The position numbers and the translations under genes are program-made. A stretch of DNA of 64,000 nt, taken from contig JAFTKO010000032.1 in NCBI GenBank assembly GCA_017453205.1, forward strand, positions 62,001-126,000, given 5' to 3'. The notes under the pieces were generated by a model. That model made no database searches. It was not told the origin of the DNA and saw only the letters and a program-made list of their open reading frames with translations. Origin of the DNA: Clostridia bacterium. Lineage in GTDB: Bacteria > Bacillota > Clostridia > Oscillospirales > CAG-272. This document shows, piece by piece, positions 8,162-64,000 of this stretch (positions are counted from its first letter, which is position 1; each line of letters starts with the position of its first letter).

Positions 8162-9988
8162 ATGGTTTTGGAGAGAGAGACTATCTGCTATGCCGACCTT
8201 AAGGGAGCGTTGGCAAAGGCTATCACATTTATCAAAGAAAATCAAATTATGGACGTGGCACTGTGGCGGAAATGCGTGGAGCAGTTCCGTATTCGTCCCG
8301 ACGGAAAAAAAAGGGCGTGGAGAGGTGAATATTGGGGGAAGATGATGCGCGGGGCGTGCATGATCCAATCCTGTACTCACGATGATGAATTATATCGCGT
8401 ACTGGAGGACAGTGTACATGATCTTTTGACAACGCAGGACGAGTTGGGCAGGTTTTCGACCTACACCGTAGAATTGGAATTTAACGGTTGGGATATGTGG
8501 TGCCGCAAGTATGTGCTTCTTGGCTTCCAATATTTTCTTGAGATTTGCCGAGATGGTTTGCTCAAAGAGCGGATTGTTGCCGCCATGTGCCGTCATGCCG
8601 ATTATATTTTGGATAAGATCGGTTCGGAGAAAGGAAAATTGGATATTTTACGCACCTCACGAGCTTGGGGTGCGGTCAATTCTTCCTCCATTCTGGAGCC
8701 GATGGTGCGACTCTACCGTTTGACGGGCGTGCAAAAATATCTCGATTTTGCGTCGTATATCGTAGATCGCGGCTTCTGTTTGGATGGAAATCTCATCAAG
8801 CGTGCGCTGGAGGATGTTCGTATTCCGTTTGAATATCCTTCGGTGAAGGCGTATGAGATCATGTCTTGCTTTGAGGGCTTAATCGCCTACTACGAGGTGA
8901 CGGGAATCGAGATCTATAAGATTGCCGCGCTCAATTTCGGGAAAAAAGTTTTGGAAACCGAGGTCAGCGTGATCGGGTGTTCGGGTTGTACGCACGAATT
9001 GTTCGATCACACGTCGGTGATGCAAACCAAAAACGATTATCCGGGCATTATGCAGGAAACCTGCGTAACGGTTACGTTGATGAAGCTTTGTGCCGCACTC
9101 CTAAAGCTTTCGGGAGATGCGACGTACGCAGATCAAATCGAACAGAGCTTTTACAATGCCTATCTCGGCTGTCTCAATACGCATCACAAAAAAGTGGTCA
9201 GTGAGGAGCAGCCTGAAATGGATATCCCCCAATTCTTGCCGTTTGACAGCTACAGCCCTTTGACCGCAGGAACACGCGGACGCAAGGTGGGGGGCTACCA
9301 ATCCTTTGGTGACGGTAGCTTTTATGGTTGTTGCGCCTGTATCGGCGCGGCAGGCATCGGCGTGATGCTACAGAACGCATGTATGCGCTCGGAACATGGT
9401 GTGGTGTTGAATTTCTATCTGCCGGGCAATATCGATACAACCACGCCGAGCGGAAAGCCCTTACATCTCGCTATTGATACCGCCTATCCGTATGACGGAA
9501 AGGTTGCGGTGAAGCTATCGCTTGAAAGCGAGGAGCGGTTTGCCCTCACCTTGCGCATCCCCGCGTGGTGCCGCAAGGCAGGTCTGACCGTAAACGGGGA
9601 AGTACATTCCACACAAAACGGCTACGTAACTGTGACGCGGATTTGGAAGAACGGCGATACGATCGTGTTGACGCTTGACATGACGGTGGCGCGTATTCTT
9701 CCGCCCGTGGGAGCAGAAAATCAAAATCTGTATGCGGCGTATCGCAGGGGCGCGATCATGCTTGCTTCCGACCGTCGCATCAGTGATCCTGATATGGCAC
9801 ACCCTATCGTGTACGATCAAAACGGTTTGGTCGAGAGCCGTAGTTGCGATTGTCCCGAAATCCCCGATCATGAGATCTGTGTAGAGCTGCAACAGCTCGA
9901 TGGCACATCTGTACGTCTTGTTGACTATGCCTCTGCAGGAAAGACATGGGACGAAGAATCTAAATGCGCTGTGTGGTTGTATCGGTGA
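8162..9988 (+). CDS. GH127-type beta-L-arabinofuranosidase (DUF1680)
   Basis: The ATG at 8162 was chosen over an upstream in-frame start at 8027 because GGAGGT lies at the right distance and the longer form would overlap the GH36-like gene by 106 bp. 608 residues. Zinc/cysteine active-site elements of GH127 are visible: QETC near residue 298 (Glu and Cys ligands) and GCCACIG near 389 (two adjacent Cys, one the nucleophile in the family). The (alpha/alpha)6 barrel repeat YADQIEQSFYNAYLG is also typical. The family removes beta-L-arabinofuranose from arabinan or arabinogalactan side chains. No signal peptide. With the rhamnosidase-like and galactosidase-like neighbours it points to pectic or arabinogalactan side chains. 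Confidence 0.9.
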   Translation: MVLERETICYADLKGALAKAITFIKENQIMDVALWRKCVEQFRIRPDGKKRAWRGEYWGKMMRGACMIQSCTHDDELYRVLEDSVHDLLTTQDELGRFSTYTVELEFNGWDMWCRKYVLLGFQYFLEICRDGLLKERIVAAMCRHADYILDKIGSEKGKLDILRTSRAWGAVNSSSILEPMVRLYRLTGVQKYLDFASYIVDRGFCLDGNLIKRALEDVRIPFEYPSVKAYEIMSCFEGLIAYYEVTGIEIYKIAALNFGKKVLETEVSVIGCSGCTHELFDHTSVMQTKNDYPGIMQETCVTVTLMKLCAALLKLSGDATYADQIEQSFYNAYLGCLNTHHKKVVSEEQPEMDIPQFLPFDSYSPLTAGTRGRKVGGYQSFGDGSFYGCCACIGAAGIGVMLQNACMRSEHGVVLNFYLPGNIDTTTPSGKPLHLAIDTAYPYDGKVAVKLSLESEERFALTLRIPAWCRKAGLTVNGEVHSTQNGYVTVTRIWKNGDTIVLTLDMTVARILPPVGAENQNLYAAYRRGAIMLASDRRISDPDMAHPIVYDQNGLVESRSCDCPEIPDHEICVELQQLDGTSVRLVDYASAGKTWDEESKCAVWLYR

Positions 9989-19566: not shown

Positions 19567-21051
19567 ATGAAAAGCAAAACAGGAGTTGTCAAAATCTTGC
19601 TATTGATTTTGACATTTGCACTTACCGTGAGTGTGTTGGCCGGTTGTAAGAAAAACGAACCGGATCCCAATACCGACTCGCAAGCCCCCGCCGACAGTGG
19701 CAACGAGGATATTTTGTACGATGAAAACGGTTACAAAAAAGACTCTTTGCCAAAGTTGAATTACCATGGCGACGATGTCACGGTGCTTTGTTGGAATGCC
19801 CCGCGTTCGGAGTTTGAAACGGAGTACGGTGATAACGTGATCGACAATGCAATCTTTGAAAGAAACGCAACCGTTGAGGAACGGATTGGCATTACGTTGT
19901 CCTTTGAGGAAACCAATGGAAGCGTAAAATACTGCGGTGACTACAAGCAAAAGGTCTTAAACGCATACAATGGCGGAGATTATTGGGATATTATTGCATC
20001 CTACACGCGCAGTACCGCCATTTGCGCCAGTGCCGGTCTTTTGAAAAACTTGGGTGGCTTGCAGGATAGCTATCTGGATTTCAGCCAGCCTTGGTGGTCG
20101 GATGACGTGATTGAAAAGACTTCGGTTGGAAACACGTTCTATTTTGCAACGGGAGATATTTCTACCAATTTAATTCAAGCAACCTACTGCATGTATTTCA
20201 ACGCCGATCTGGTTGATGATTTGCGATTGTCCTCTCCTTATGATATGGTTGCTAACAACGAGTGGACGCTTGACAATATGCTCACCATGACAAAAGATGT
20301 TTATCTGAGCATGGATGAGAATGAAACGGTTGAGGTTACCGACCGCGTTGGAATTGTGGGCTCGTATTATGCATGGCCGGCAATATTACACGGTTGCGGT
20401 CTTCCGATTGTGGAAAAGGATGCGGCAGGCTCCTTTGTGATGAACGCAGAGTATAAGGGCGAAAAAGCCATGAGCATCATGAATAAAATCGCCGATGCAA
20501 TCAGCGCAAAGCAGGTGCTTGTAAACGAGTCGAGCGCAGGCTTTGTTGCCGGAACCAATCTTTTCTTTATCATTGATAGCGGCGCGGGTCTGAACTCTTT
20601 TTCCGACGTTGACTTTGAATACGGTTGTGTTCCGATGCCCAAATATACCGGCGAGCAAGAAACCTACTATTCTACGGTTCGTCAGCCCATTACCCTTTAC
20701 GGTATGATGTTAAATTTGCCCACCGAACGGGTTAGTGAGGTATCGGCTGTGCTGGAATGCCTTGCAAGCGAGGGCTACCGTCAGACCACTCCCGTTATTT
20801 TTGAAGAATGTATGAAGTATCTGAGATCCACATCTCCCGAAATGACCGAGATGCTGCAATTGATTCGCGATACTGCATGGTTTGATTGCGCAAGAATTTA
20901 CGCGCAAGAAACCAAATACGTGTGTGATGCTCCCGGATACGTGCTCCAGGACGGCAGAACGTGGGAAAATTATATCAACGATACCATTCCTACTGTGGAA
21001 GGTTACATTAAAGCGTTGAGTACGAAGTTGCTTTCCGTCGCACTTCAGTAA
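19567..21051 (+). CDS. Extracellular solute-binding lipoprotein (ABC family 1-like)
   Basis: 494 residues, AAGGAGG upstream. A lipoprotein signal peptide ends in the lipobox LAGC at about residue 26, followed by an acidic linker. The mature part has family-1 binding-protein features: VTVLCWNAPRSEF strand, YWDIIASYTRSTAIC, WWSDDVIEKTSVGNTFYFATGD and a C-terminal GYRQTTPVIFEE region. Such proteins capture sugars for ABC importers. No permease or ATPase gene is adjacent, so the transporter is elsewhere or the protein has another ligand-sensing role. First gene after the strong promoter. Confidence 0.85.
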   Translation: MKSKTGVVKILLLILTFALTVSVLAGCKKNEPDPNTDSQAPADSGNEDILYDENGYKKDSLPKLNYHGDDVTVLCWNAPRSEFETEYGDNVIDNAIFERNATVEERIGITLSFEETNGSVKYCGDYKQKVLNAYNGGDYWDIIASYTRSTAICASAGLLKNLGGLQDSYLDFSQPWWSDDVIEKTSVGNTFYFATGDISTNLIQATYCMYFNADLVDDLRLSSPYDMVANNEWTLDNMLTMTKDVYLSMDENETVEVTDRVGIVGSYYAWPAILHGCGLPIVEKDAAGSFVMNAEYKGEKAMSIMNKIADAISAKQVLVNESSAGFVAGTNLFFIIDSGAGLNSFSDVDFEYGCVPMPKYTGEQETYYSTVRQPITLYGMMLNLPTERVSEVSAVLECLASEGYRQTTPVIFEECMKYLRSTSPEMTEMLQLIRDTAWFDCARIYAQETKYVCDAPGYVLQDGRTWENYINDTIPTVEGYIKALSTKLLSVALQ

Positions 21052-52258: not shown

Positions 52259-52729
52259 TCAGTTCTCCAGCTGTCTGCCGAGAAACCCGGCGGCGGTAAG
52301 GATCAGCTTGCTTTCCACTTCTCCTCCGGGAACTTCGCGCCGCGCTGCTCCGGGTTGATCGGTAACAGACGCTACGCACCCGACAATGTCGCCCTCGCTG
52401 ATGATGGGCATGGCACAGCTGACATAGTAGCTTCCGCCTTCCGCAAGCACGGGGATGGGCTCGCTGTCCTCTCGGTGGAAGTACAGAGAGCGGTTCTCAA
52501 TGATCTGTTCCAGCTCCTCGGAGAGTGCCTTGTCGGTGTAATCCTTGCGCGGGACTCCCGCACAAGCGATCACGGCGTCGCGGTCACAGATCACGACGGA
52601 AAGGGAACAGGTCTTGTGCAGGGTTTCGGCGTATTGCGACGCAAACGAGGCGAGCTCGCCGATGGGAGAATATTTTTTAAAGATGACTTCACCTTCGCGG
52701 TCAGTATAGATTTCAAGCGGGTCGCCCAC
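52259..52729 (-). pseudogene. spoVT: 3' part of spoVT (lacks the first ~30 codons)
   Basis: The last ~155 codons match SpoVT over its whole C-terminal region: GDPLEIYTDREGEVI, KKYSPIGELASFA, the GAF-like VVICDRDAVIACAG, PIISEGDIVGC and LTAAGFLGRQLEN. What is missing is the N-terminal AbrB-type DNA-binding swapped hairpin (in Bacillus about 30 residues up to RIRE). SpoVT is a forespore regulator made under sigma-G. A GTG at the junction could in principle start a GAF-only product but has no good ribosome site. Confidence 0.88.
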
Positions 52730-54484
52730 ACTGATAATATTGACACGAAAAACCTTGTCATGCTGCTTATTTGCACGCTGTACTGCCTCGATTTCATAGA
52801 AATCGTCGGCGCTTTCGATATTTTCCGTGTCTTTGTCAAAATTTACGGCTGCTCCGCTTTCCTCATTCTGTTTCAGCTGCTCGATCGTACCCGTTCTTAG
52901 AAGCTCATCGATCTCCGCCTTCAGCTTGATCTCGATATGATCCTCAAAAACAACCATGTGACTGATAATCAGGTTGATATCGTTCTTGTCAAGGTGATCC
53001 TTTTCCAAAATGTCGTTAAAAACGTCAATGACGGTCTTGGCAACGCGATTAACTCGAACCATCGTGTTGGTTGTGTTTGCCACCATTTCAAGCTGATTTT
53101 GCAAGCCCTCAATACGGTTTCTGGAACTGTCAATCTCCATATCGTAGGATTCAACCATAATGGATCCCTCGCCCGATCTTGCAAGCTCCTTGGCTCTTTG
53201 CTTTACCAAGGAACGAAGCACGTCGCGCTCCTCCTCAATTTCCGCAATAAGAGTCTCGGCGGCTTCCTTTCCGTTAGCGGTACGCTGATCTTCGTTTTTG
53301 ATAGCATCCTTCAAAACATCAATCATCGAAGCGGAATTATCGCGGATCTTTCGGATATATTCCTTCAATACTTCATCAAGAAAATCGACCTTAACCGTGT
53401 GAGCCTTGCATCCCTTCAGCCCTCTTCTGTGATACCTTCCGCAAACGTAGGCATCGTTCAGAGTCTCTCGATTTCTCGCAAACATCGGAGAACCGCAATC
53501 ACCGCAAATCAAGAAACCGGAATAGTTATTCTCGTTTTTCTTTACTCCGCGATAGTGATCTTTCTTTCTGCGCTCCAGCTGCTCTTTCGCCGTCATAAAT
53601 GTGCGTGAGTCAACGATAGGCGTATGATGGTTCTCAAAAACGATATGCTGGCTTTCGTGAACGGGTACGTCGGGACCATTGATCCTCTGCCGCTGAAATT
53701 TCTTGCAACGAAGCGTGCCGATATAGAAATCATTACAGAGTATCTCCGATACCGTTATGATGCTCCACTCCTCACGAACCTTCGCATGATACTCATCTCC
53801 CATCGCCTCCTTGCGAGCTTTCTCGCACATTCTCGGCGTTGGGATTTTTTTATCGGTCAGATGATTGGCGATTCTCTTGTACCCCCAACCACTTATGTAG
53901 AGGCGGAAGATCTCGCGAACCACCTCAGCGGCAGGCTCGTCAATCTCGTAGATCATCTTTTTGGTGTTCTTCATTACGTAGCCGTAAGGAACCGAACAGA
54001 CCCACTCACCCTTCTTCTGACGGTTTGCGATGACTGCCAATACCTTTTTGCTGGCATCGGTTACGGGCATTTCGTTAACGAAGAAATAGAGCTTTATCTG
54101 CAACCAGTCGTCGGTCTTGCCCTCCTCGTAATCGATGGATTCACCAATCGAAATGATGCGAAGATTATTTTCAACAAGATCCTCAAACTCGGCAAGTCCC
54201 TTTCCTGTACGGCGAGAAAAACGGCTCAGATCCTTGATGATCAAAATATCATACTCACCGCTCATCAGCTTCGGACGAAGCTCGTAATAATAACACGGAC
54301 GCTGATTAAACGTATATCCGGATTTATCACGGTCTTCATAGTAATCCACCGTACTCGTTGGAAAGTGAGTCTTACAATACTCAGCAATAATTGCCTTTTG
54401 GTTCTCGATACTCGTGTTGTCGGTGTCTTTCTCAACGTCCACCGAAATACGGGTATAAGCGGCAATTTTGTATCTTTCTACCAT
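52259..54484 (-). CDS. Large serine recombinase fused in frame to the SpoVT C-terminal domain
   Basis: 741 residues; AAAGGAGATATAAA before the ATG. Order: resolvase domain with the catalytic Ser14 in YTRISVD, KDLSRFSRRTG; recombinase domain with PYGYVMKNTKK and GWGYKRIANHL (about 165-280); zinc ribbon with CGDCGSPMF and later Cys (about 325-365); coiled coil (about 375-470); a spacer; then from residue ~586 GDPLEIYTDREGEVI, the SpoVT sequence, to the end. The true recombinase must have had another C-terminus before integration. Large serine recombinases integrate and excise elements at short att sites. The product may be active with a GAF tail or be regulated by it. Confidence 0.9.
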   Translation of the reverse strand: MVERYKIAAYTRISVDVEKDTDNTSIENQKAIIAEYCKTHFPTSTVDYYEDRDKSGYTFNQRPCYYYELRPKLMSGEYDILIIKDLSRFSRRTGKGLAEFEDLVENNLRIISIGESIDYEEGKTDDWLQIKLYFFVNEMPVTDASKKVLAVIANRQKKGEWVCSVPYGYVMKNTKKMIYEIDEPAAEVVREIFRLYISGWGYKRIANHLTDKKIPTPRMCEKARKEAMGDEYHAKVREEWSIITVSEILCNDFYIGTLRCKKFQRQRINGPDVPVHESQHIVFENHHTPIVDSRTFMTAKEQLERRKKDHYRGVKKNENNYSGFLICGDCGSPMFARNRETLNDAYVCGRYHRRGLKGCKAHTVKVDFLDEVLKEYIRKIRDNSASMIDVLKDAIKNEDQRTANGKEAAETLIAEIEEERDVLRSLVKQRAKELARSGEGSIMVESYDMEIDSSRNRIEGLQNQLEMVANTTNTMVRVNRVAKTVIDVFNDILEKDHLDKNDINLIISHMVVFEDHIEIKLKAEIDELLRTGTIEQLKQNEESGAAVNFDKDTENIESADDFYEIEAVQRANKQHDKVFRVNIISVGDPLEIYTDREGEVIFKKYSPIGELASFASQYAETLHKTCSLSVVICDRDAVIACAGVPRKDYTDKALSEELEQIIENRSLYFHREDSEPIPVLAEGGSYYVSCAMPIISEGDIVGCVASVTDQPGAARREVPGGEVESKLILTAAGFLGRQLEN
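52718..52736. other. Element-chromosome junction (att site) inside spoVT
   Basis: On the reverse strand the reading frame changes from recombinase-type sequence (FRVNIISV) to SpoVT (GDPLEIY) at about 52727. The crossover of 2-3 bases probably lies in or next to GTGGGCGACCC. The exact core cannot be fixed without the other junction. Confidence 0.6.
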
Positions 54485-54499
54485 TTTATATCTCCTTTC

Positions 54500-54515
54500 T
54501 TGTTATCGCTAACAA
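54500..54515. promoter_or_regulatory. Inverted-repeat operator at the recombinase start
   Basis: TTGTTA and TAACAA arms surround a 4-base centre, directly after the -10 box where the transcript should begin. A repressor bound here would block the recombinase promoter. Confidence 0.6.
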
Positions 54516-54516
54516 C

Positions 54517-54545
54517 ATTGTAACATATTTTCGTTTTCAAGTCAA
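54517..54545 (-). promoter_or_regulatory. Sigma-A promoter of the recombinase
   Basis: On the reverse strand TTGACT and TACAAT with a 17-bp spacer, 33 bp before the recombinase ATG. It looks vegetative and shows no sigma-E or sigma-K pattern. Confidence 0.82.
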
Positions 54546-54573
54546 TATGACAGAAAAATGTTTACAATATTGT

Positions 54574-54810
54574 TTATCCATCCGCTGATGCCTCCTTGCG
54601 TGCATTGAGCAGATGATTGTAGGAAAGAAGACTTTGGGTAAGCGTAGTCAGATCGCCGTTGCCGGATTCAAAAACCACAACCTTATAGTCCATTGCCTTG
54701 TATTTTTGGTAGATCGGTTTCAGATCTTCGCGAAGCGCATTGTCACGTGACTCACCGCGAGTGAGCCATATCGATACGTATTTTTTGTTGTCATAAACAT
54801 TTATTTCCAT
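54574..54810 (-). CDS. Small recombinase-associated protein of unknown function
   Basis: 78 residues from the ATG at 54810, preceded by AAAGGAGTGAGC; an ATG at 54828 would place that site inside the gene. It begins MEINVYDNKKYVSIWLTRGE and contains YKVVVFESGNGDL; a compact alpha/beta protein without Cys. Genes of this kind sit before serine recombinases in clostridial elements as far as I recall, but no function is known. A recombination directionality factor is one possibility. Confidence 0.75.
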   Translation of the reverse strand: MEINVYDNKKYVSIWLTRGESRDNALREDLKPIYQKYKAMDYKVVVFESGNGDLTTLTQSLLSYNHLLNARKEASADG

Positions 54811-55215
54811 ACAGCTCACTCCTTTCATTGAATTATTGACGCGTGGCTCTTTTGATATTCAGATACCGTTTGTCCTGATGGAATTTTAATGCTTGTCTTT
54901 GTCTTAAACTCATGTCTGTATTGATAGAAAACTGCTGTGTTCACCTCCTTTCAAGCTTTCTATTACCTCACTCAGATCGAGCTTAAAATCTGAGTTTGGA
55001 GAAAGGCAGATTTATTTGCCTTTCAACTGTAACCACACTTAAAACTCTCGATTTTTATACCTTTTTTCAAAAAAATTGAATTTTTTCACCCAAGCTTTTC
55101 TGATTTTTCAAAGGAGCTTTAAGTGTCTTTACTAATACAGTGGGAATTTTGACGCAAAATCTCATCACGTTTCCGAAAATTTTTGAAAATTATTTTTCGT
55201 TTCAAAAATTGCATA
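54811..55215. other. Long leader region of the element with possible small peptides
   Basis: On the reverse strand an AAAGGAGGTGA site at about 54943-54953 is followed by two short open frames: 39 codons from a GTG at 54944 (ends SEYQKSHASIIQ) and 26 codons from an ATG at 54913 (basic, RQRQALKFHQDKRYLNIKR). Neither has both a good start and a good spacing. The rest is AT-rich; I see no other gene. Confidence 0.4.
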
Positions 55216-55216
55216 A

Positions 55217-55263
55217 GAAAAAGCCGTTATCGAAAGCGTTACGAAAACGCCTTGATAGCGGCT
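55217..55263 (-). terminator. Terminator at the end of the defence operon
   Basis: On the reverse strand AGCCGCTATC pairs with GATAACGGCT around a 22-base region that can itself pair (GGCGTTTTCGTAACGC), followed by TTTTTCTT. Confidence 0.8.
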
Positions 55264-55443
55264 CTTTATTTATGCCTGCGCCAAAATGAAAAGTGCAAGC
55301 TAAAACCGGAACTCCACGCCCCGATCAAAGCTTACACTTTTTGACATTACCATTATAACATATTTACTTTAACTTGTCATCGGCTTATCTCTGCCTTTTT
55401 TCCGCCTTTTTTGTGACATTCTCAAAATCGGTATGATAAATGA

Positions 55444-55815
55444 CTATTTTGCCCTTTTCTTAACTGATTTTGTGGCTTCAAAACTTACGTTCACGAGAAA
55501 CTGCACCACGTCCTCAGGCGCATCGGGCAGTAGCACCGAAATCCAATGAAGCTTATTCATATGATACGCTGGATATACTCCGTCCGCTGCACCGAACGAA
55601 CCGAACATTTCCGTCGGCAGCTTGAGATTGACAACGTCGATTAACTCGTCGCTGTCAAACCCAAACTTGCACCGCGAGACCTTCATCACAATCGCATACC
55701 ACTTGCGATTGTCCGTGTGCCTCAGCACCGCCGTCTCAAAATCCTCGTCAAACGGATAGTCTGGTGATGTGCCGTATGTATCAAGGCAGTATTCAAGAAA
55801 TTCTTGTTTTGTCAT
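55444..55815 (-). CDS. MmcQ/YjbR-family protein
   Basis: 123 residues from the ATG at 55815, overlapping the upstream stop (TAATG). Family pattern: EYCLDTYGTSPDYPFDEDFETAVLRHTDNRKWYAIV at the start, VVNLKLPTE and MNKLHWISVLL. YjbR proteins have a CyaY-like DNA-binding fold of unknown role. Last gene of the element operon; a terminator follows about 180 bp later. Confidence 0.87.
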   Translation of the reverse strand: MTKQEFLEYCLDTYGTSPDYPFDEDFETAVLRHTDNRKWYAIVMKVSRCKFGFDSDELIDVVNLKLPTEMFGSFGAADGVYPAYHMNKLHWISVLLPDAPEDVVQFLVNVSFEATKSVKKRAK

Positions 55816-56597
55816 TATTTTCCCTCTTGTTTGGGTTGGCATGTTTTTACAAAAAGCTTCCCAAAAGGAGAAATTTTAACTATTTTCCTTTCAAACACTA
55901 ATCGTTCAGTAGGTGCACCGAGATAGATAATTGGATTTTCAAGAGGTTTATATAGAGACTCGTTGGAATAATGTGTATCTGCAGGAATTTCTACAAGTTG
56001 CAATCTAATTAAATTGTCCACATACACGAGATAATTTTGAGGAACATCTAACAATCCATCTGGCATTGTAAAATTTAGTTTTGCAAGAATTCTGAAACCT
56101 GTACCAGTTTCTGACCGTTTTCTAACCTCTACCGCAGGTATAGCTTTTTGTTCAGAAAAATAGCGTAACAATTTTGCTTCATCTGGAGCTAATTGTTTAA
56201 TAATATCCACAAATGCGGGATGGACATCTCCTTTTGTGTCTGCATTCATCGAAGAAGCAAGTAGATTTGCATACAATTCTCTTAACTCTTCACTATCAAG
56301 ACTATAGCTCAACTGTTGCAATGCAGGCACAGCAACATAAGGCTCGGGCTCTACGATTTTTTCTTCAGGTATGTGTTTTAACTTTTCTGCCAGAAGTATC
56401 TCTGTTTCTTTTATCGCATATTCACCGTTGAGAATCCATTTTTCCCACTTTCCAAGCCATACCTTAATAGTTCTTGGGATAAAACTTATAATTTGCCCTG
56501 TCGCGTGAGCGGTAGGATGCGCAATATCATCATAAGTTTTACCAGCGGTCTGCGCAACCAATTCCTTTGCAAGATCTTGATTTATATCGTTACTCAT
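55815..56597 (-). CDS. DUF4393-type protein (Abi-alpha-like, possible abortive infection)
   Basis: 260 residues from the ATG at 56597 (ACGGAGAAAAACAAT). QDLAKELVAQTAGKTYDDIAHPTAHATGQIISFIPRTIKVWLGKWEKWI and later LRELYANLLASSMNADTKGDVHPAFVDIIKQL resemble DUF4393 proteins, which I place with the Abi_alpha family. No catalytic motif or membrane helix beyond a weak one near residue 45 is visible. Located just downstream of a type III restriction system, a defence role is likely but inferred. Confidence 0.7.
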   Translation of the reverse strand: MSNDINQDLAKELVAQTAGKTYDDIAHPTAHATGQIISFIPRTIKVWLGKWEKWILNGEYAIKETEILLAEKLKHIPEEKIVEPEPYVAVPALQQLSYSLDSEELRELYANLLASSMNADTKGDVHPAFVDIIKQLAPDEAKLLRYFSEQKAIPAVEVRKRSETGTGFRILAKLNFTMPDGLLDVPQNYLVYVDNLIRLQLVEIPADTHYSNESLYKPLENPIIYLGAPTERLVFERKIVKISPFGKLFVKTCQPKQEGK

Positions 56598-56649
56598 ATT
56601 GTTTTTCTCCGTATGTTTATACTGCAATTATTTCAGAATTATAGTTTTA

Positions 56650-59600
56650 TCACTTCATAACCTTTTCAAGCAGGCTTTGATAGCTATCGACCACATCATA
56701 CACCACATCATCACCGCTAATAGCTTTAAAATGCTCTCTTGCACAATCAATCTTTGCTTGTTCAACAGGAGTAATGTGGTTAAATGTCATTGTATCCATT
56801 GTACCCTTGGTTTCAGCTACAAAATAGATGTGCTTTACCTTACCCTCATAAAAGGCAATTGCCCAGTCTGGGTTATATTTGCCTACCGGAGTAGTAATGT
56901 AAAAGCTATTCGGAAGCTTAACGTATACAGCAACATCCGTATTTGTATCAAGCTCTGTTGCAAAATTGCGCTCATTAGTAGAATCATAGACGATATGATC
57001 GTACAGGTGATTATTTGCTTTCATTGCATTTACACCAAGCTTACCCTTGATTGTAGCATCGGTAAAGATATCCGTATCATAGCAGTCATCAATCACACTA
57101 TAGGTTATATGCTGAATAATTGCCGTTGCCTTTTCGTCATTGATCAATTGAGCTGCTTTTATAATGAAATCTTCTGGATTGTCCTTAAATTGATCAAAAA
57201 CAGTTTTGTCGATGCCTTGAAGAATAGCAACGATCGCTTTGCGAGTCAGTCCTGTTTCCTCTACCAGCTTTCCAACCAAATCGTATTTAACGCTTTGATT
57301 TGCGCGAATTGTGTTTTCAAGATTGTACATAGAGGATTTTTCTTTGGTAAATGACGATCCCTCCAGTAAAGATTCTTTTGATTTTATTTCAGACATTGCT
57401 CCGCTTTCGATTTTGAAGAAAACCTTCGATACTCTGAGCTTGAGATTCAATTTGTCTATTGCTTTTGAAATCAGCTCCTCTGTATCGAAATCCACAACGT
57501 ATACGGATTTTGCATTGATACGCTTCCATAGCGCTTTAAATTCCTGCATTTGAAGCTTATCGTTGTTTACCTGTAACTCCACATTGTTGCTTCGAGCATT
57601 TTCTGGCTGCATTGCCTTGCTGTCATATACAGAATCAAGGATATCAATGATTGATTCTGTGCAATCGGCAACCTCCTCCGCAACCTTAATCTCCGAATTG
57701 GACTTATCTTCGTAATATTTATCCGTAAGATTACCTTTTCGGTCGATATAGCCATTGATGATCATCTCATAGTGAATAGCTTGAGCGAGGTCTGCATCTA
57801 CAACAACTTCATTTCCGTCGATATCCTTAATAACCTTACCCTTGAACAAATCAACGGTAACAGCGCGCGGACGGTTAGCCACCGCATCTGCCAATTCCTC
57901 TTGTAATCCTTTGGCAAACTTGTCGTAGCTCTCACTTGCAATAACGGTAAGTACATTGATGCTGTGAACATCGTTTCCGAGCACGTTGGCATCCATACGC
58001 TCTCCGTCCTGATTGACACAAAGACGCAACCCGCGACCGACTTCCTGACGCTTACGCACCTCGCTGCTACTTTGCTTTAACGTGCAAATTTGGAATACAT
58101 TAGGATTATCCCAGCCTTCTCTTAACGCAGAGTGGGAGAAGATAAAGCGAACCGGTGAACGCTTGGGATTACGATCGAGTAACAACTCCTTGTTTTTCAT
58201 GATTAGGTCATACGCATCAATATCATCTGAAGTCTTTTCCGCTTTGTCGGAGAATTTGCTATCGGTCATACGTCCTTTTTTATCAACAGAAAAGTATCCG
58301 GCGTGTGTAGCGTTCGCATCAATCGCATTGAGATAACGCATATAATCATCGTCACCGAACTGAAGCTGCATATTACCGAGAATATCGTTGTATTCCTCAA
58401 CAAACATATCAGCGTAAATACCATTAAAGGGTTGTCCTGCCTCATCATATTGCTTGTACTTTTGCACTTCATCAATGAAGAACAAAGACAGCACCTTGAT
58501 CCCCTTGTGGAACAGCTTTCTTTCTCTCTCGATATGGGATAGAATGGTTTCTCGAATCTGTATACGGCGTAACTGATCCTCTGCTACTTTGCCTATAACA
58601 TCGCCTGCGTAAATTTTGATACCATTAAGAAATTCCACCGAATCGTCACGACCGTCAATTGCCTTAACAACAAAATTGTTTTTGTATTCATCAAGATTGC
58701 CTGAATGATCGTACAGATTATATCCGATATTGACTGTTGCCGTCTTTTTCTTGATTCCCGAAGCACCTTTGACATCAAATTGAATGGTTGCCGTAGGATC
58801 TGCTTTTGAAAGATTGATGCTTTCAAGATATACGTATCCCTCGGTTGCAGTGCTTCCTGTTTCGGTAATTCCTTTTACGGCAATCTTCTTTACCAATCGT
58901 TTGTTGTACGCCTCCATTGCATCCAGACGGTACACCATATTATAAATACTGTCGGATTTGTGAGTTGCCGAATAACGCAAGGTGATTAAAGGATTGAATT
59001 CCTTCAGTCTCTCCTTGGTTTGCTTTCCCTCTACCGACTGAGGCTCATCAATGATTACAATAGGATTTGTTTTTGCAATAATATCAATCGGACGGCGGGA
59101 ACGGAATTCGTCAAGCTTCATATAAATGCGTCGCGCATCCTTGCCCTTAGCATTGAATGCTTGGGAATTGATGATCATAACGTTAATTCCGTTGTCAGAC
59201 GCAAAACGGTCAATCTCGGTAAGCTGAGCAGAATTGTAGATAAAGAAGCGAACTTTTTTACCGTATTCCTCCGCAAAATGCTCCTGCGTTACCTGAAAGG
59301 ATTTGTAAACACCCTCTCTGATTGCCACGCTTGGAACAACCACGATGAATTTGCTCCATCCGTAATGCTTATTTAACTCATACATGGTTTTGATGTATGT
59401 ATAAGTTTTGCCAACGCCTGTTTCCATCTCAATCGTCAGATTGTACCGTCCTTCAAGCTGAAGTGAGGGGGCAATTTGATTGGCACGTTGTATTTTATTT
59501 AGATGCTCCAATATAACGGCATCGGAAAGTCCGGGCACAATACGCTCATTGCGCCAGCCCGTAAAATCTTCATCGTCTGTCGTTTTCATCTGATAAACGC

Positions 59601-59712
59601 TACCTTTGTCCATCATATAGGATGGTGTAAGATAGGGCTGTCCGGCAAAAACATCTACAACCGCTTTGGCAGCGTCAGCTTGGAATTTTTGATGTTTAAA
59701 TTGGAGTTTCAT
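56650..59712 (-). CDS. res: Type III restriction endonuclease subunit (Res)
   Basis: 1020 residues from the ATG at 59712 (CAGGAGGTGAAAGAT). Superfamily 2 helicase motifs: METGVGKTYTYIK (Walker A, near residue 95), IVVVPSVAIREGV, VIIDEPQSVEG (DExx box) and LRYSATHK, then HSALREGWDNPNVFQI and VGRGLRLCV. The C-terminus has a PD-(D/E)xK nuclease pattern, NPDWAIAFYEG then FVAETKGTMD near 965-985. It forms a complex with the Mod subunit, cuts unmodified DNA after ATP-driven movement and is cytoplasmic. The ribosome site overlaps the end of the HEPN gene. Confidence 0.93.
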   Translation of the reverse strand: MKLQFKHQKFQADAAKAVVDVFAGQPYLTPSYMMDKGSVYQMKTTDDEDFTGWRNERIVPGLSDAVILEHLNKIQRANQIAPSLQLEGRYNLTIEMETGVGKTYTYIKTMYELNKHYGWSKFIVVVPSVAIREGVYKSFQVTQEHFAEEYGKKVRFFIYNSAQLTEIDRFASDNGINVMIINSQAFNAKGKDARRIYMKLDEFRSRRPIDIIAKTNPIVIIDEPQSVEGKQTKERLKEFNPLITLRYSATHKSDSIYNMVYRLDAMEAYNKRLVKKIAVKGITETGSTATEGYVYLESINLSKADPTATIQFDVKGASGIKKKTATVNIGYNLYDHSGNLDEYKNNFVVKAIDGRDDSVEFLNGIKIYAGDVIGKVAEDQLRRIQIRETILSHIERERKLFHKGIKVLSLFFIDEVQKYKQYDEAGQPFNGIYADMFVEEYNDILGNMQLQFGDDDYMRYLNAIDANATHAGYFSVDKKGRMTDSKFSDKAEKTSDDIDAYDLIMKNKELLLDRNPKRSPVRFIFSHSALREGWDNPNVFQICTLKQSSSEVRKRQEVGRGLRLCVNQDGERMDANVLGNDVHSINVLTVIASESYDKFAKGLQEELADAVANRPRAVTVDLFKGKVIKDIDGNEVVVDADLAQAIHYEMIINGYIDRKGNLTDKYYEDKSNSEIKVAEEVADCTESIIDILDSVYDSKAMQPENARSNNVELQVNNDKLQMQEFKALWKRINAKSVYVVDFDTEELISKAIDKLNLKLRVSKVFFKIESGAMSEIKSKESLLEGSSFTKEKSSMYNLENTIRANQSVKYDLVGKLVEETGLTRKAIVAILQGIDKTVFDQFKDNPEDFIIKAAQLINDEKATAIIQHITYSVIDDCYDTDIFTDATIKGKLGVNAMKANNHLYDHIVYDSTNERNFATELDTNTDVAVYVKLPNSFYITTPVGKYNPDWAIAFYEGKVKHIYFVAETKGTMDTMTFNHITPVEQAKIDCAREHFKAISGDDVVYDVVDSYQSLLEKVMK

Positions 59713-59717
59713 ATCTT

Positions 59718-60284
59718 TCACCTCCTGCTTTTCTTTTTTATATTAGCTTCATTATTCTTCATACATTCACGGCGATTATTTTCAATTTTTTTATCAATCT
59801 CAGCACATTCTTCTGGCGAAAGTGCCATTTCTGATTTTGTAAAGAACACATTATATCCCAGTTCGAACATCACAATAATAAGTGCATTGGTAAATGCCGA
59901 AAGAAATCGTATATCGAAGGCAGGTGCAAACTTTCCTTCATAACAGTATCTCCATTGTACAAAAGCATCTGACATAAGTAATAATTCGTTTTCTCGCTTT
60001 TCCGTATCTGCATACTCCGGCGCTTTTTGAGCAAGAAAGTACCAAACTCTATTTTGAAAATCCATAGGAAGTTTTTCAAAAAGAATTTTAAGATTATGTT
60101 CGTTATTATAAGGTATATCTTGTTCCACTAAAATAGCCTTGATTATCAATTCAGCAGAAAAAGCTCCATTAACCAATTTAGGGATATACAAAAGCAATTC
60201 GTCCTGATCCGGTTCAAGCTGATCAAGGGCAATATACGCATTATAAAATGATTTCGCCAAATATGCTAATGATGGATTTTTCAT
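59718..60284 (-). CDS. HEPN-like protein between Mod and Res
   Basis: 188 residues; start overlaps the Mod stop by one base. AFSAELIIKAILVEQ and NEHNLKILFEKLP (about 40-75) are the HEPN-type helices as found in RiboL-PSP and DUF4145-like proteins. No clear Rx4-6H ribonuclease motif is seen. The C-terminus is a charged tail. HEPN proteins bind or cut RNA and nucleotides. Its placement between the two subunits of a restriction system is uncommon. Confidence 0.72.
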   Translation of the reverse strand: MKNPSLAYLAKSFYNAYIALDQLEPDQDELLLYIPKLVNGAFSAELIIKAILVEQDIPYNNEHNLKILFEKLPMDFQNRVWYFLAQKAPEYADTEKRENELLLMSDAFVQWRYCYEGKFAPAFDIRFLSAFTNALIIVMFELGYNVFFTKSEMALSPEECAEIDKKIENNRRECMKNNEANIKKKSRR

Positions 60285-62284
60285 CAGATCACCTTCACTC
60301 TTGTATCGGGAGCAAGAAGCTTGAATATTTCTGTTACGTTGATCTTGGCAGGGCTATTGGCAAAGCTGCTGTCGCGGAAGACTGCGCGGAGAGGTTTGCG
60401 CTTCGCGATCTCCTTAATGACAGTTTCGGGAATGTTTTCCTCAAAGCATGCTACCAGGTCTCCGTCATTATAGGTGTGAACGGTATAGTCCTCAATTTTT
60501 TCGGATTTATACGGCAGAGAAAGAGGCAATCCCCATTCAAGTAAGCAACCAAACAGCAAATCGAGGTCGGTACGGTCGTCCTTGATATTTGATTCCAACA
60601 TAGAGAGCATGTCCTGGGAGTAGTCATCAGCACTGTAATATACGCTATTCATGTTGGATTCATCGAGCTTGAACACACGGAAGCCGATGTCTAAATCCGA
60701 TGCCAAATCAAGTTTTGATTCAGTTCTTTGATTTAATTCTTGTTCCAAATCACGATTGAAGTCTATTGCAAACAGATTAATTGCAGCTTCTCCCAACAAT
60801 TTTTGTTTTATGCTATCGCCAGCTCTTTTAATTCGTATTTTGGCTAATTCAGGGATGGTGTGTGGTAGTTTTAACTGATCAAGAACAGACACAGCATTCT
60901 CAGCCACTCTCTTTGCATTTGCTGATGAACTGTTGAGCATCGGATCGATGTTTTCATCTAATTGAACCAAGATAAACTTTCTATGATTACCATCAAGATT
61001 GGAACGCATAACCGCTTCAGCGGTTGTTCCCGATCCGCTAAAAAAGTCCAATACGATATCATCTTTGCCTAACCCAAAGCCAAGTAAAAACTCAATCAAA
61101 GCAACTGGCTTAGGATTGGAAAAGACATCTTTCTTAAAGTATTCGTATACATCATTAGCTCCTGCACTCGTAGTTCCTTTGTCCGAAATAACCGTATTAG
61201 TTGTAAAAATACTGCGTGGGGTTTTACCTAAAGGAATTCGTTGCTTGAATTGTACCGACCATTTGTCGTTTACTTTAATGATTCTAATTTCCCCAGCTTT
61301 AATATCTGAATCAAATCGCTCTTTCGATCTTAGCCAACTAATTGCGTTGCCATCATCGTCGTATTCAAGGATAGTTCCATCGGGACATGTAATCGGATAG
61401 TATTGTTTTCCAGCCTTACGCTTAAAAGTATCCCAATAAAACCTACCTACATCATCAACCTCTTTATAGCGTTTTATATATTCTGCAGAATAGGATTCGT
61501 AAAACTCTCCTAACAAGACCTTGTTTTTAGCATAAGTCAAAATATATTCGTGCTCAATTGCGATGTGAGTGGAATCATTGCCTCCGCCTTTTTTATTTTG
61601 CCAAATCAATTGAGCTATAAAGTTCGCTCCTCCAAATATCTCGTCACAAATATTCTTTAGATTTCGAATTTCACTATCATCTATGGATATAAAAATAACA
61701 CCATCATCAGTTAAAAGATTCTTTGCAAGTTGTAGGCGGGCATAGAGCATACTACACCAGTCGGAATGAAAACGTCCATTGGTTTCCGTATTATGAAACA
61801 AACGATTGTTATCCTCGTTAAAAACTCCGATTTGTTCTGCGTATTGATTGGTGTCCGTTGTATAGTTGTCTTTATATACAAAATCATTTCCGGTGTTGTA
61901 CGGTGGATCAATATAGATCATCTTTACCTTGCCAAGATAACTTTCCTGCAACAGCTTCAGCACTTCAAGGTTATCTCCCTCAATGTATAGGTTCTCGGTC
62001 GAATCCCAATTTTTGCTTTCATCGGGACAGGGGCGCAAAGTTTTACGAATCGGCTTGTTAGCTTCTACAATTGCCGCTTTCTTACCTACCCATGTAAACT
62101 CATATTTTTCATCGCCCACAATAGCTTCCTCGGTCAGCATCTGACGGAGAATATCAAAATTGATTGCTTTCTTGAGTTTCCCGTTCTCATCTACAGTTTC
62201 CGTGATACAATTCGGGAACAACGCACCGATCTTTTCTATATTCTGCTCGGTCATATTTACCGATTCCATTCTCATTTTTTCCAT
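60284..62284 (-). CDS. mod: Type III restriction-modification methyltransferase subunit (Mod)
   Basis: 666 residues; AGGAGAAACAAAATC before the ATG, which overlaps the upstream gene by 13 bp. Motif IV DPPYNTG lies near residue 128 and motif I DFFSGSGTTAEAV near 415, the beta-class order of type III adenine methyltransferases. The region between is the target recognition part. It methylates one strand of an asymmetric site and guides the Res subunit. The target sequence cannot be read from the protein. Confidence 0.93.
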   Translation of the reverse strand: MEKMRMESVNMTEQNIEKIGALFPNCITETVDENGKLKKAINFDILRQMLTEEAIVGDEKYEFTWVGKKAAIVEANKPIRKTLRPCPDESKNWDSTENLYIEGDNLEVLKLLQESYLGKVKMIYIDPPYNTGNDFVYKDNYTTDTNQYAEQIGVFNEDNNRLFHNTETNGRFHSDWCSMLYARLQLAKNLLTDDGVIFISIDDSEIRNLKNICDEIFGGANFIAQLIWQNKKGGGNDSTHIAIEHEYILTYAKNKVLLGEFYESYSAEYIKRYKEVDDVGRFYWDTFKRKAGKQYYPITCPDGTILEYDDDGNAISWLRSKERFDSDIKAGEIRIIKVNDKWSVQFKQRIPLGKTPRSIFTTNTVISDKGTTSAGANDVYEYFKKDVFSNPKPVALIEFLLGFGLGKDDIVLDFFSGSGTTAEAVMRSNLDGNHRKFILVQLDENIDPMLNSSSANAKRVAENAVSVLDQLKLPHTIPELAKIRIKRAGDSIKQKLLGEAAINLFAIDFNRDLEQELNQRTESKLDLASDLDIGFRVFKLDESNMNSVYYSADDYSQDMLSMLESNIKDDRTDLDLLFGCLLEWGLPLSLPYKSEKIEDYTVHTYNDGDLVACFEENIPETVIKEIAKRKPLRAVFRDSSFANSPAKINVTEIFKLLAPDTRVKVI

Positions 62285-63429
62285 GATTTTGTTTCTCCTG
62301 TTATTTCTTTCATGCTTTTGGCTAATTCAATTAATGCGGGATCCGGTTTGAAATCTTTTAGAGATTTTTGCAATTCTAATAATTCCTGCGGAATAGTGAT
62401 TTTATATTCTTTCATTGATGCCGCAAGCTCCTGCAACTCTTTAACAACTGGGGGAATATCCAATTGAATTTTTGATATTTCTTGAACATGTTTCGTTATG
62501 TCTGCAAATTCGGGTGATACAAGATATTCTCTCATAGCAACTATTTCAGGCGATTTTGTCAGACGGCGGTATTCTTCAATTGCCGCAATCATACCCTGGG
62601 GCTTTATTCCAGAAGCCATAGCTTGCAGCTCTGCTAATTGTTCTTGCCAGCTTTTTGCGGTCTGCACAGAATCCATGTCTTTTATAGCATCTCCCATAGC
62701 CGTATTGAAATCCTGTTCAGGTTCTTGTTGAACCGTATTCTCCTTGGCTACAATAATTTTACCAATTTCGGTATCAAGTTGCTCATTTATCTTTTTTATA
62801 AGCTTTAATGCAGAAGAATAACTTTTGGCATTCATCGCATGCGCATGCATTACATCGTTACGAAAATTCTTAACTTTAATAAAATCTGAACGCAACAGTG
62901 GAACCGCATCTTTTCCTATCAAGTTATCCCAAACAGTATGTTCGGACAATTGTTCTATCGCGGCAACTATTTCAGCTTTGGTAAACTGCCACGTTTTATC
63001 GCCAATTGTTTTCTTAGCATTTTGTACGAACTGAGCATCCGAGAACAAAAGAGTAAATATTTCTCCGAAATCCTTGCTTTCCAAATCCTTTATGATCTCT
63101 GCATCTTTGGAATTCTTGCTCAGCGCACTTTTTAGGTAAAGCAATTTTCTCAGCTTTCTTTCGAATTCGTTAAAATGGGGAAAAAGAGCTTTATTATAAT
63201 ACGCAGAGCAACCGTTGCTCAAAACAATGGGGTGAAATTCTCCAATGATATACTCGTGAACCTTCGATAAGGTATTTGCGCTTGGTTCACTTTCGCTTGA
63301 CAAGGAAAATGTTGCAATCCAGCAATCGGAATTATCAATATCATATATTTCAATTTTTATGTCATCGGGAGTATATTGTTCGATTTTTTCTTTCTCTGTC
63401 TTATTTATGAAAAGATATTCTTGAATCAT
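62272..63429 (-). CDS. HEPN-domain protein with Rx4H motif
   Basis: 385 residues, start overlapping the upstream gene by 4 bp (ATGA). The middle region FIKVKNFRNDVMHAHAMNAKSY (about residues 185-206) contains RNDVMH, the Rx4H active site of HEPN ribonucleases, and FNEFERKLRKLLYLKSAL (about 87-105) fits the first HEPN helix (Swt1-type). The C-terminal third is helical, coiled-coil-like (LQELAASMKEYKITI). A nuclease toxin or effector linked to the restriction system is plausible; activity is inferred. Confidence 0.7.
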   Translation of the reverse strand: MIQEYLFINKTEKEKIEQYTPDDIKIEIYDIDNSDCWIATFSLSSESEPSANTLSKVHEYIIGEFHPIVLSNGCSAYYNKALFPHFNEFERKLRKLLYLKSALSKNSKDAEIIKDLESKDFGEIFTLLFSDAQFVQNAKKTIGDKTWQFTKAEIVAAIEQLSEHTVWDNLIGKDAVPLLRSDFIKVKNFRNDVMHAHAMNAKSYSSALKLIKKINEQLDTEIGKIIVAKENTVQQEPEQDFNTAMGDAIKDMDSVQTAKSWQEQLAELQAMASGIKPQGMIAAIEEYRRLTKSPEIVAMREYLVSPEFADITKHVQEISKIQLDIPPVVKELQELAASMKEYKITIPQELLELQKSLKDFKPDPALIELAKSMKEITGETKSWKK

Positions 63430-64000
63430 GATATTTGCTCCAGCTCCTTTTTCAAGCGTTTTAATTCTTCATTCAGCTGAATTTGTCTATTTAGTTGCTT
63501 CTCGCTACGTATCTTCTTTTCCAACGATGCGATATCCGTTATCAATTTGCGCCGATGCGTTTCCGTAGCAATGTTTTCCTCAATCGTTGCATTGACATCC
63601 CATGCAGCACTATTTTCACCGCAAACAATCTGTTTTATAGTGTTTTCCCATACAATGTCAAGATCAAGTCCCGACAGTGGCACTAAAAGCCTATCAAGCT
63701 CCACCCATTCCGTGTGGTATAGGCGATTATGATAGTACGCAAGGCAATACTGATTTTCATACTGCAAAAGGAAAATCATACGCTGAGGTATCAGTTTGGA
63801 GAGGCTCGCAATAGCCTTTTCGTCGTACTTTTTGTTCTTCAGTACGATTTGAAGTATGTAAAAGCCTTGTATGTCCTTTCCCGCCGCAATTTGCGTAGTT
63901 GTCGGTGTAATCTCTCCAACAATAGAGATACGGGATATATCAGCGTCAAATTTTGCCTTTTGAGCTGTGGTCATATTGAATTTTTCGTATATTGCTTTTT
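63426..64000 (-). CDS. DUF4391-domain protein (5' end outside window)
   Basis: The frame stays open to the window edge (KAIYEKFNMTTAQKAKFDAD), so the ATG at 63974 is internal. About 190 residues are visible. FDADISRISIVGEITPTTTQIAAGKDIQGFYILQI and LSKLIPQRMIFLLQY are DUF4391 features. These proteins are linked to helicase- and type III restriction-type loci; the function is unknown. A coiled coil (LEKKIRSEKQLNRQIQLNEELKRLKKELEQI) ends the protein. First visible gene of the operon. Confidence 0.8.
   Translation of the reverse strand, partial: KAIYEKFNMTTAQKAKFDADISRISIVGEITPTTTQIAAGKDIQGFYILQIVLKNKKYDEKAIASLSKLIPQRMIFLLQYENQYCLAYYHNRLYHTEWVELDRLLVPLSGLDLDIVWENTIKQIVCGENSAAWDVNATIEENIATETHRRKLITDIASLEKKIRSEKQLNRQIQLNEELKRLKKELEQIS

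Follow-up and report, generated by a model that had tools for sequence, protein, structure and literature searches.

A probable integrative element in spoVT that exchanges the C-termini of its recombinase and SpoVT

In a 64,000-nucleotide stretch of DNA from a Clostridia bacterium (hereafter the window, C29:62001-126000 of genome G000, a 73%-complete assembly of 44 contigs), a single open reading frame (ORF) joins a large serine recombinase to the C-terminal part of the sporulation protein SpoVT. We consider it highly likely that this ORF marks one end of a 20.3-kb integrative mobile element inserted in codon 32 of spoVT, that the insertion swaps the C-termini of the recombinase and SpoVT, and that spoVT is off while the element is integrated. 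The sequences compared here establish the two junctions, an unoccupied target site and the dinucleotide at which crossover takes place, and they show that the insertion recurs and has spread between genera; that the fused recombinase-SpoVT protein is made and that the element is excised, we infer.

Results

The fused ORF occupies positions 52259-54484 of the minus strand and stays open through 741 codons (741 amino acids) with no internal stop, which bears out the reading of a first-pass annotation of this DNA that the recombinase frame runs on into the C-terminal part of spoVT. A Pfam scan of the ORF returned, in order, Resolvase, Recombinase, Zn_ribbon_recom and SpoVT_C, and the NCBIfam profile for SpoVT, TIGR02851, was matched over its positions 23-180. 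By sequence, the closest solved structures were SpoVT 2w1t, whose chain residues 24-177 correspond to ORF residues 580-740, and the resolvase homolog YokA, which we take to be the SPbeta integrase. On domain and alignment evidence, the recombinase part (52724..54484, minus strand) comprises the Resolvase, Recombinase and zinc-ribbon domains, a coiled-coil region, a linker and the left arm of attP, the attachment (att) site of the element. The three domains are present in 18 of the 18 members of our recombinase alignment A2, and by its domain composition the enzyme of the element is a large serine recombinase. The rest of the ORF (52259..52721, minus strand; Pfam, TIGR02851 and structure match) continues the recombinase frame and encodes the SpoVT residues from about 32 onward, which make up the remainder of the AbrB domain and the GAF-type SpoVT_C domain. 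As had also been annotated, the SpoVT start is absent at this junction, amounting to about 32 codons.

The same annotation had placed the second junction on the reverse strand past position 64000, and a TIGR02851 search located the absent spoVT start (profile positions 1-33) there, at C29:135051-135149 on the minus strand, 20.3 kb away and beyond the window. Both junctions share a 10-bp core, GGGCGACCCG (52718-52727), which agrees with the annotated view of the fusion point as an att-type site of an element splitting spoVT. When the flanks were joined at this core, a single open spoVT of 185 codons (185 amino acids) resulted, and the split is precise in that the rejoined flanks restore the spoVT reading frame. 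The element measures 20,336 bp; its portion in the window extends over 52723..64000 and continues to about contig position 135058 (window-equivalent 73058). Flank joining and empty-site alignment place the hybrid att site on the spoVT 3' side, composed of a recombinase-gene arm and a host arm, at 52699..52746, and the crossover dinucleotide GA within the core, mapped on related elements, lies at 52722..52723. Outside the window, the spoVT start together with the native tail of the recombinase is found at C29:134970-135152 on the minus strand, as determined by profile search and junction reading.

An empty site was found in two genomes of the same genus, G263 and G294, which carry an uninterrupted spoVT: the two spoVT flanks of the window align to it side by side, meeting at the core. 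The alignment covers spoVT itself, over approximately 455-469 plus 98-100 bases, and the neighbouring genes gave no alignment but for a single 1.1-kb stretch in G294. In the G000 assembly a profile search found no intact spoVT elsewhere, at a completeness of 73%. The assembly contains the stretch at least twice, as the first 20 kb of contig C37 are 100% identical to C29. We rejected the C37 copy as a second functional spoVT; it is a redundant contig, identical to C29 throughout the 20 kb compared.

Comparison of elements from different hosts revealed how the two halves of the ORF came together. Among five species of the same family, belonging to four genera, the recombinase side of the junction is identical at 78 of 78 bases and the tail side at 70 of 70, whereas on the SpoVT side no more than 45-55 of the first 60 bases agree. 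Identity between elements in different hosts ends at the dinucleotide GA, and at the opposite junction the base to the left of GA differs by host, judged by reading the printed junctions. Since identical element ends adjoin diverged spoVT genes in these five species and four genera, the fusion arises anew with every insertion. Moreover, synonymous divergence (dS) was 0.42-0.48 in the recombinase domains as against 1.07-1.67 in SpoVT_C of the same ORFs, measured in 25 pairs drawn from 93 fused coding sequences after 13 of 88 named or viral loci had been dropped as unfused, truncated, ambiguous or distant. No name was reused among the pairs, but G232 and L096 are one element, so that one sequence stands in two pairs. 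By this measure the ORF is one reading frame with two histories, which break at the core.

These data bear directly on the possibility that the ORF is a stable fused gene passed on in that form. The wide distribution of the fusion and the lack of an intact spoVT elsewhere in 24 of 25 further assemblies would speak for it. The unequal dS of the two halves and the identical element ends in different hosts led us to reject it, and in the two genome sets described below the spoVT start is still present, in 20 of 26 genomes of the first and 21 of 24 of the second; we regard a stable fused gene as very improbable. The first-pass annotation had taken a conserved fusion in genomes with no other spoVT as the sign of such a gene: the conservation and the general lack of another spoVT held, but the fusion is re-created at each insertion and not kept as a stable gene.

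To define the extent of the phenomenon within the family, 295 genomes were sampled, 272 of which gave some match to TIGR02851, and from these we took 28 whose best E-value, approximately 1e-36 to 1e-49, lay in the range expected of a split gene. The SpoVT C-terminal part was in frame with a recombinase in 26 of the 28, in 17 as complete frames and in nine cut by contig ends, and the far spoVT start was located in 20 of these 26. As only the 28 selected genomes were inspected, at least 26 of 295 is a lower bound for the fusion. A spoVT split at this frequency in one family could mislead predictions of spore formation. In the other two genomes, G180 and G189, a contig end falls at the core or close to it. 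G180 (L030, L047) has spoVT positions 1-70 uninterrupted on one contig, and another contig begins at the core; in G189 (L019, L082), spoVT is uninterrupted at the beginning of the contig with the C-terminal part, which reaches about 8 codons past the core towards the spoVT start, and another contig holds the spoVT start and, behind it, a tail. Read in this way, both genomes suggest mixed empty and occupied sites, arising through excision or from different strains. We did not use contig ends near junctions as evidence of excision; an element common to several species explains such breaks too.

Scanning named genomes with the recombinase alignment yielded at least 552 confirmed relatives, and among the best 80 loci, which were read, 77 showed the in-frame SpoVT fusion, two of these being cut by a contig end. 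This set overlaps the family set, with at least four contigs of equal length occurring in both. The hosts include the isolate records of Ruminococcus flavefaciens FD-1, 007c, ATCC 19208 and YRD2003, Ruminococcus sp. Marseille-P6503 and Flavonifractor sp. An100, as well as a Borkfalkia assembly, Dysosmobacter and others. Examination of 25 genomes from the named-genome loci found no intact spoVT in 24, and of these 24 the far spoVT start was present in 21; the suggestion of the annotation that another intact copy might exist thus found no support, either here or in the incomplete G000 assembly. Because the fusion recurs in many genomes, chance is excluded. An assembly chimera might have been suspected from the fragmentary state of the G000 assembly and its redundant contig, but with the same fusion in the isolate records named above and in many separate assemblies, we consider a chimera next to impossible.

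Two sites departed from the usual arrangement in form. At L153/L222 (G302), the element sits in spoVT in the opposite orientation, so that it adjoins the spoVT start in antisense; its core reads GGGTCACCC, which perhaps represents a natural flip of the central dinucleotide. In G056, two spoVT starts lie on one contig (G056:C51:5209-5346 and 20531-20641; L072, L073), and the second contains a stop and differs in its core, suggesting two stacked elements.

Mobile-element records were searched as well. Plasmids gave 145 records, all below 60% identity, with the matches listed at 24-31%. Phage records numbered 317, and the top two, at 50% and 47%, are both faecal virome contigs, one of which stops at the attP arm and the other of which is fused to SpoVT; neither shows a circle. 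Of 20 viral-contig loci, eight were read: three carry the SpoVT fusion, one stops short of a complete core and four distant ones are unfused. In L189 (MT839487.1), a faecal virome contig, the sequence breaks off where the attP arm of a related recombinase begins; it carries an ORF read as mobilisation. An att-pattern search for a free circle in IMG/VR gave no matches and is uninformative, as the same pattern also found none of 188 known loci.

The position of attP explains the form of the junctions. At the far junction, the spoVT start runs in frame into a short conserved tail with the pattern P..TTLT...FC.AM..L.KR.G, a consensus of 31 aligned chimeras that is common to the family of the window, Ruminococcus and Flavonifractor. 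Tails were mostly 25-30 residues long, with extremes of 21 and 73 (the latter in the Borkfalkia assembly, G304). In all, 42 tail stretches were read, 37 of them distinct, including the antisense arm of the inverted G302 insertion and the damaged second G056 copy; the set is without G312 and G314, which were missed by the search pattern (19 of 21 read). In the proposed mechanism, the recombinase would recognise the most conserved stretch of spoVT and insert the circular element at codon 32, with attP lying within the recombinase coding sequence, usually 25-30 codons before the native stop. As attP is within the recombinase gene, integration would give each of the two proteins the C-terminus of the other. 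With strands exchanged at the central GA, a tail-bearing recombinase and SpoVT would be converted into recombinase-SpoVT_C and SpoVT_N-tail, so that the recombinase would lose its native tail and gain SpoVT from about residue 32, the first SpoVT residues would gain the tail, and no normal SpoVT would be made in the integrated state. Precise excision would restore both genes. The N-terminal domain of SpoVT is described as conserved, at approximately 95% similarity, and the C-terminal part as a GAF domain with an unknown ligand (PMC5061766). That the targeted stretch is the most conserved part of SpoVT may account both for its use as a target and for the many hosts in which the element family occurs.

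The reconstituted att sites are those of a large serine recombinase element, with a symmetric attP of about 50 bp, a less symmetric host site (attB) and crossover at a central dinucleotide. Across 11 genomes, attP was symmetric at 16-19 of 23 positions and attB at 7-10 of 23, the base after GA being taken as C. The coding character of the tail is apparent from stop codons: in 17 distinct same-family tails, a stop occurred within 22 codons in two in the native frame versus 16 and seven in the other frames, and the two native-frame stops are one 21-residue tail and the damaged G056 copy. The ratio of nonsynonymous to synonymous differences per site (pN/pS) in the tail was 0.35 (seven pairs), and the linker before the core had a dN/dS (dN, nonsynonymous divergence) of 0.43. 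By these ratios, linker and tail are under protein-level constraint. The attP arm had a low dS of 0.22, which fits a coding stretch that doubles as a binding site. On a natural contig, L104, the recombinase continues into the same tail as is found there behind the spoVT start, with one mismatch; the contig represents either a circle or two copies in tandem. At locus L016, a short relic reading RTVRIREG follows the tail stop within the element, about 120 bases from the core (near 8920-8945, minus strand); it resembles spoVT codons 24-31 and was perhaps left by an earlier insertion.

Several observations weigh against insertion by a mobile element as we have described it. The far spoVT start went unfound in six of 26 and three of 24 genomes, for which assembly gaps may be responsible, and three of the best 80 loci (L101, L104 and L153) do not fit the usual fusion. 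The L104 junction sits at a contig end with its one mismatch and could be a tandem copy. In addition, most of the hosts tested keep spoIVA, so that loss of SpoVT should cost them something, and a purely selfish reading of the element must accept this. At L101 (R. flavefaciens NALB_7963_3), a recombinase of the same family lies at another site, and this genome has an intact spoVT.

SpoVT is described in Bacillus subtilis as a forespore regulator under sigma-G (PMC5061766). Of 29 genomes tested in which spoVT is split or broken at the core, 25 keep SpoIVA, among them the four R. flavefaciens isolates and An100, so that most of these hosts retain a sporulation gene despite their split spoVT; the search found none in the G000 assembly, G031, G304 and G314. 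It was present in seven of seven genomes that are free of the element and in four of four same-genus genomes tested, and its absence from the 73%-complete G000 assembly says little. A sigG search in G000 gave only sub-cut-off sigma-factor matches (163 bits against a cut-off of 457), which at this completeness likewise says little.

Gene control in the element was examined by its promoters. Read by eye against the sigma-A consensus, the recombinase has what looks like a vegetative, sigma-A-type promoter (54517..54545, minus strand) consisting of TTGACT, a 17-bp spacer and TACAAT. A TACAAT box, mostly preceded by TTGAC, is seen by eye upstream of the recombinase in 15 of 18 regions. An att-arm-like sequence, CAATGTTATCAG, overlaps the TACAAT -10 box, and because of this overlap repression of the recombinase by itself is possible. 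Upstream of the recombinase lies a small conserved protein (54574..54828, minus strand), which we consider likely to be the recombination directionality factor. A protein of this kind, 65-100 amino acids long, is encoded upstream of the recombinase in 84 of 104 stretches, a set in which some elements appear twice, and its motif, IWLTNAE...VAVFESG.GDL...LL..N, is tied to this element family: it was present in seven of seven genomes with the element and in none of three without it. In R. flavefaciens FD-1, however, the small protein is encoded on the other strand, and its copies are separated from the recombinase by some 60 kb or more. Three copies scanned against Pfam gave no match at the gathering cut-off. 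When 21 regions upstream of the small protein were searched with the sigma-G and sigma-K patterns, no sporulation-sigma pattern was common across elements; sigma-G-like sequences occurred in three close loci (two being the same element) and a sigma-K-like one in a single locus, counts made without a chance control.

These results allow us to weigh whether the element is excised from spoVT in a programmed manner during sporulation, as skin is, so that SpoVT is made in the forespore. The general plan would suit such a role, the serine-recombinase element lying in a sporulation gene with a small neighbour as possible directionality factor, as described for GirC and GirX of gin (PMC5595907), and so would the retention of spoIVA and the mostly undamaged reading of the spoVT halves, the second G056 copy being damaged. 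The sigma-A-type recombinase promoter points the other way, yet it is also compatible with programmed excision because the recombinases of SPbeta and of the Clostridioides difficile skin element are reported to be constitutive (PMC5595907). Further against it stand the lack of a common sporulation-sigma pattern upstream of the small protein, and the patchy distribution with near-identical elements in several genera, which is mobile-element behaviour. Moreover, excision in the forespore, where SpoVT acts (PMC5061766), would lose the element unless the circle were kept and reinserted; with most hosts keeping spoIVA, this paradox remains real. On balance we hold programmed excision to be unlikely.

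A second possibility is that the C-terminal exchange acts as a switch, in which the tail form of the recombinase integrates and the SpoVT_C form differs, being excision-competent, silent or ligand-controlled. The protein-level constraint on tail and linker is in line with such a switch, and the Protein Data Bank holds a chain joining YokA and YotN of SPbeta, presumably the integrase and its directionality factor. An engineered fusion of an integrase to a directionality factor has been published as controlling direction (PMC5737554). By this analogy, a role for the part fused to the recombinase C-terminus is possible. On the other side, the match in frame between attP and spoVT is one ancestral property, for which chance alone gives one in three; the constraint on SpoVT_C may date from its earlier life in an intact gene; and a separate candidate directionality factor exists. 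We accordingly give the switch a low probability. A more elaborate version, which we find more doubtful still, is that the element borrows the sensor of SpoVT: the tail form would integrate, the oligomerisation or ligand state of the form with the GAF-type domain would gate excision, and the circle would enter the spore and reinsert after germination. If true, the element would leave spoVT on the signal that SpoVT reads in the forespore, and the forespore paradox would be dissolved.

Beyond the recombination genes, the cargo of the element in the window consists, all on the minus strand, of a YjbR/MmcQ-family protein (55444..55842; Pfam, NCBIfam), an Abi_alpha protein corresponding to PADLOC PDC-S47 (55815..56627; Pfam, PADLOC), the res subunit of a type III restriction enzyme (56650..59721; Pfam, NCBIfam, PADLOC), a 188-amino-acid protein with a weak HEPN match below cut-off in a profile scan (59718..60284), the mod subunit, a type III DNA methyltransferase (60284..62284; Pfam, PADLOC), a 385-amino-acid protein to which profile scans assigned no family (62272..63429) and a DUF4391 protein (63426..63974; Pfam). 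It continues beyond the window with an SNF2-type helicase (best PADLOC model C3a139, HKD+Snf2), a DUF234 ATPase (PADLOC PDC-S27), a protein whose matches to HNH nucleases stay below cut-off and a 387-amino-acid protein that has no family, and a DUF6100 protein adjoins the far end of the element. By these matches the cargo is a type III restriction-modification set with other defence-type genes. Other members of the family carry different cargo: the G128 element of about 34 kb has a relaxase and further ORFs read by sequence as polysaccharide genes, and the elements of G038 (about 8 kb) and R. flavefaciens ATCC 19208 (about 18 kb) contain ORFs read in the same way as transporter genes. The element family is therefore not defined by its cargo.

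Discussion

The arrangement recalls the sporulation intervening elements, of which skin in sigK, SPbeta in spsM, vfbin in spoVFB, gin in gerE and yin in yabG are described (PMC10747680, PMC5595907). As in those, a serine-recombinase element splits a sporulation gene precisely, rejoining restores the gene, and a small neighbouring protein is the candidate directionality factor. Restriction-modification genes, which the element in the window carries, are likewise present in gin (PMC5595907). No intervening element in spoVT was found in the literature searched, as judged by titles and the beginnings of abstracts, and the main text of a survey of large serine recombinases (PMC10083194) does not mention spoVT. 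The spoVT element differs from the known ones in its target, a forespore gene in B. subtilis; insertion in a mother-cell gene is typical of skin-type elements, though it does not define them. In contrast to them, the att site falls within the recombinase gene, which shares one reading frame with the host gene, the element is spread over many genera, and the promoter reading gave no evidence of sporulation control. With this element it can be tested whether a forespore gene is able to harbour an intervening element.

SCC-type elements can carry restriction-modification genes, and there is a likeness both in this cargo and in the recombinase part, whose best NCBIfam profile is CcrB (118 bits). 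The target gene, however, is different, and membership among the SCC/Ccr recombinases was rejected on scores of 118.2 of 900 bits for CcrB, 74.1 of 900 for CcrC and 73.5 of 700 for CcrA.

A parallel in the effect on the protein is the integration-dependent immunity of mycobacteriophage BPs, where attP lies in a phage gene and integration changes the C-terminus of its product (PMC4557955). There the repressor is described as being shortened and losing a degradation tag, whereas here the recombinase gains a folded host domain and the SpoVT start gains a tail. The spoVT element would be a recurrent natural case in which site-specific recombination swaps, in frame, the C-termini of a recombinase and of a host developmental regulator, and it makes testable whether the part fused to the C-terminus of a serine integrase sets its direction.

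Finally, the gene for the archaeal SSV-type 'suicidal' integrases also contains attP, and the enzyme is therefore altered on integration; a review confines recombinases that disrupt their own gene to the archaea (PMC8371274). In SSV-type elements a tyrosine recombinase is split into inactive halves; the spoVT element has instead a bacterial serine recombinase that keeps its recognised domains, only its tail being swapped for a host domain. We view the spoVT element as a bacterial serine-recombinase counterpart of the archaeal self-disrupting integrases, one in which the domains of the enzyme are kept.

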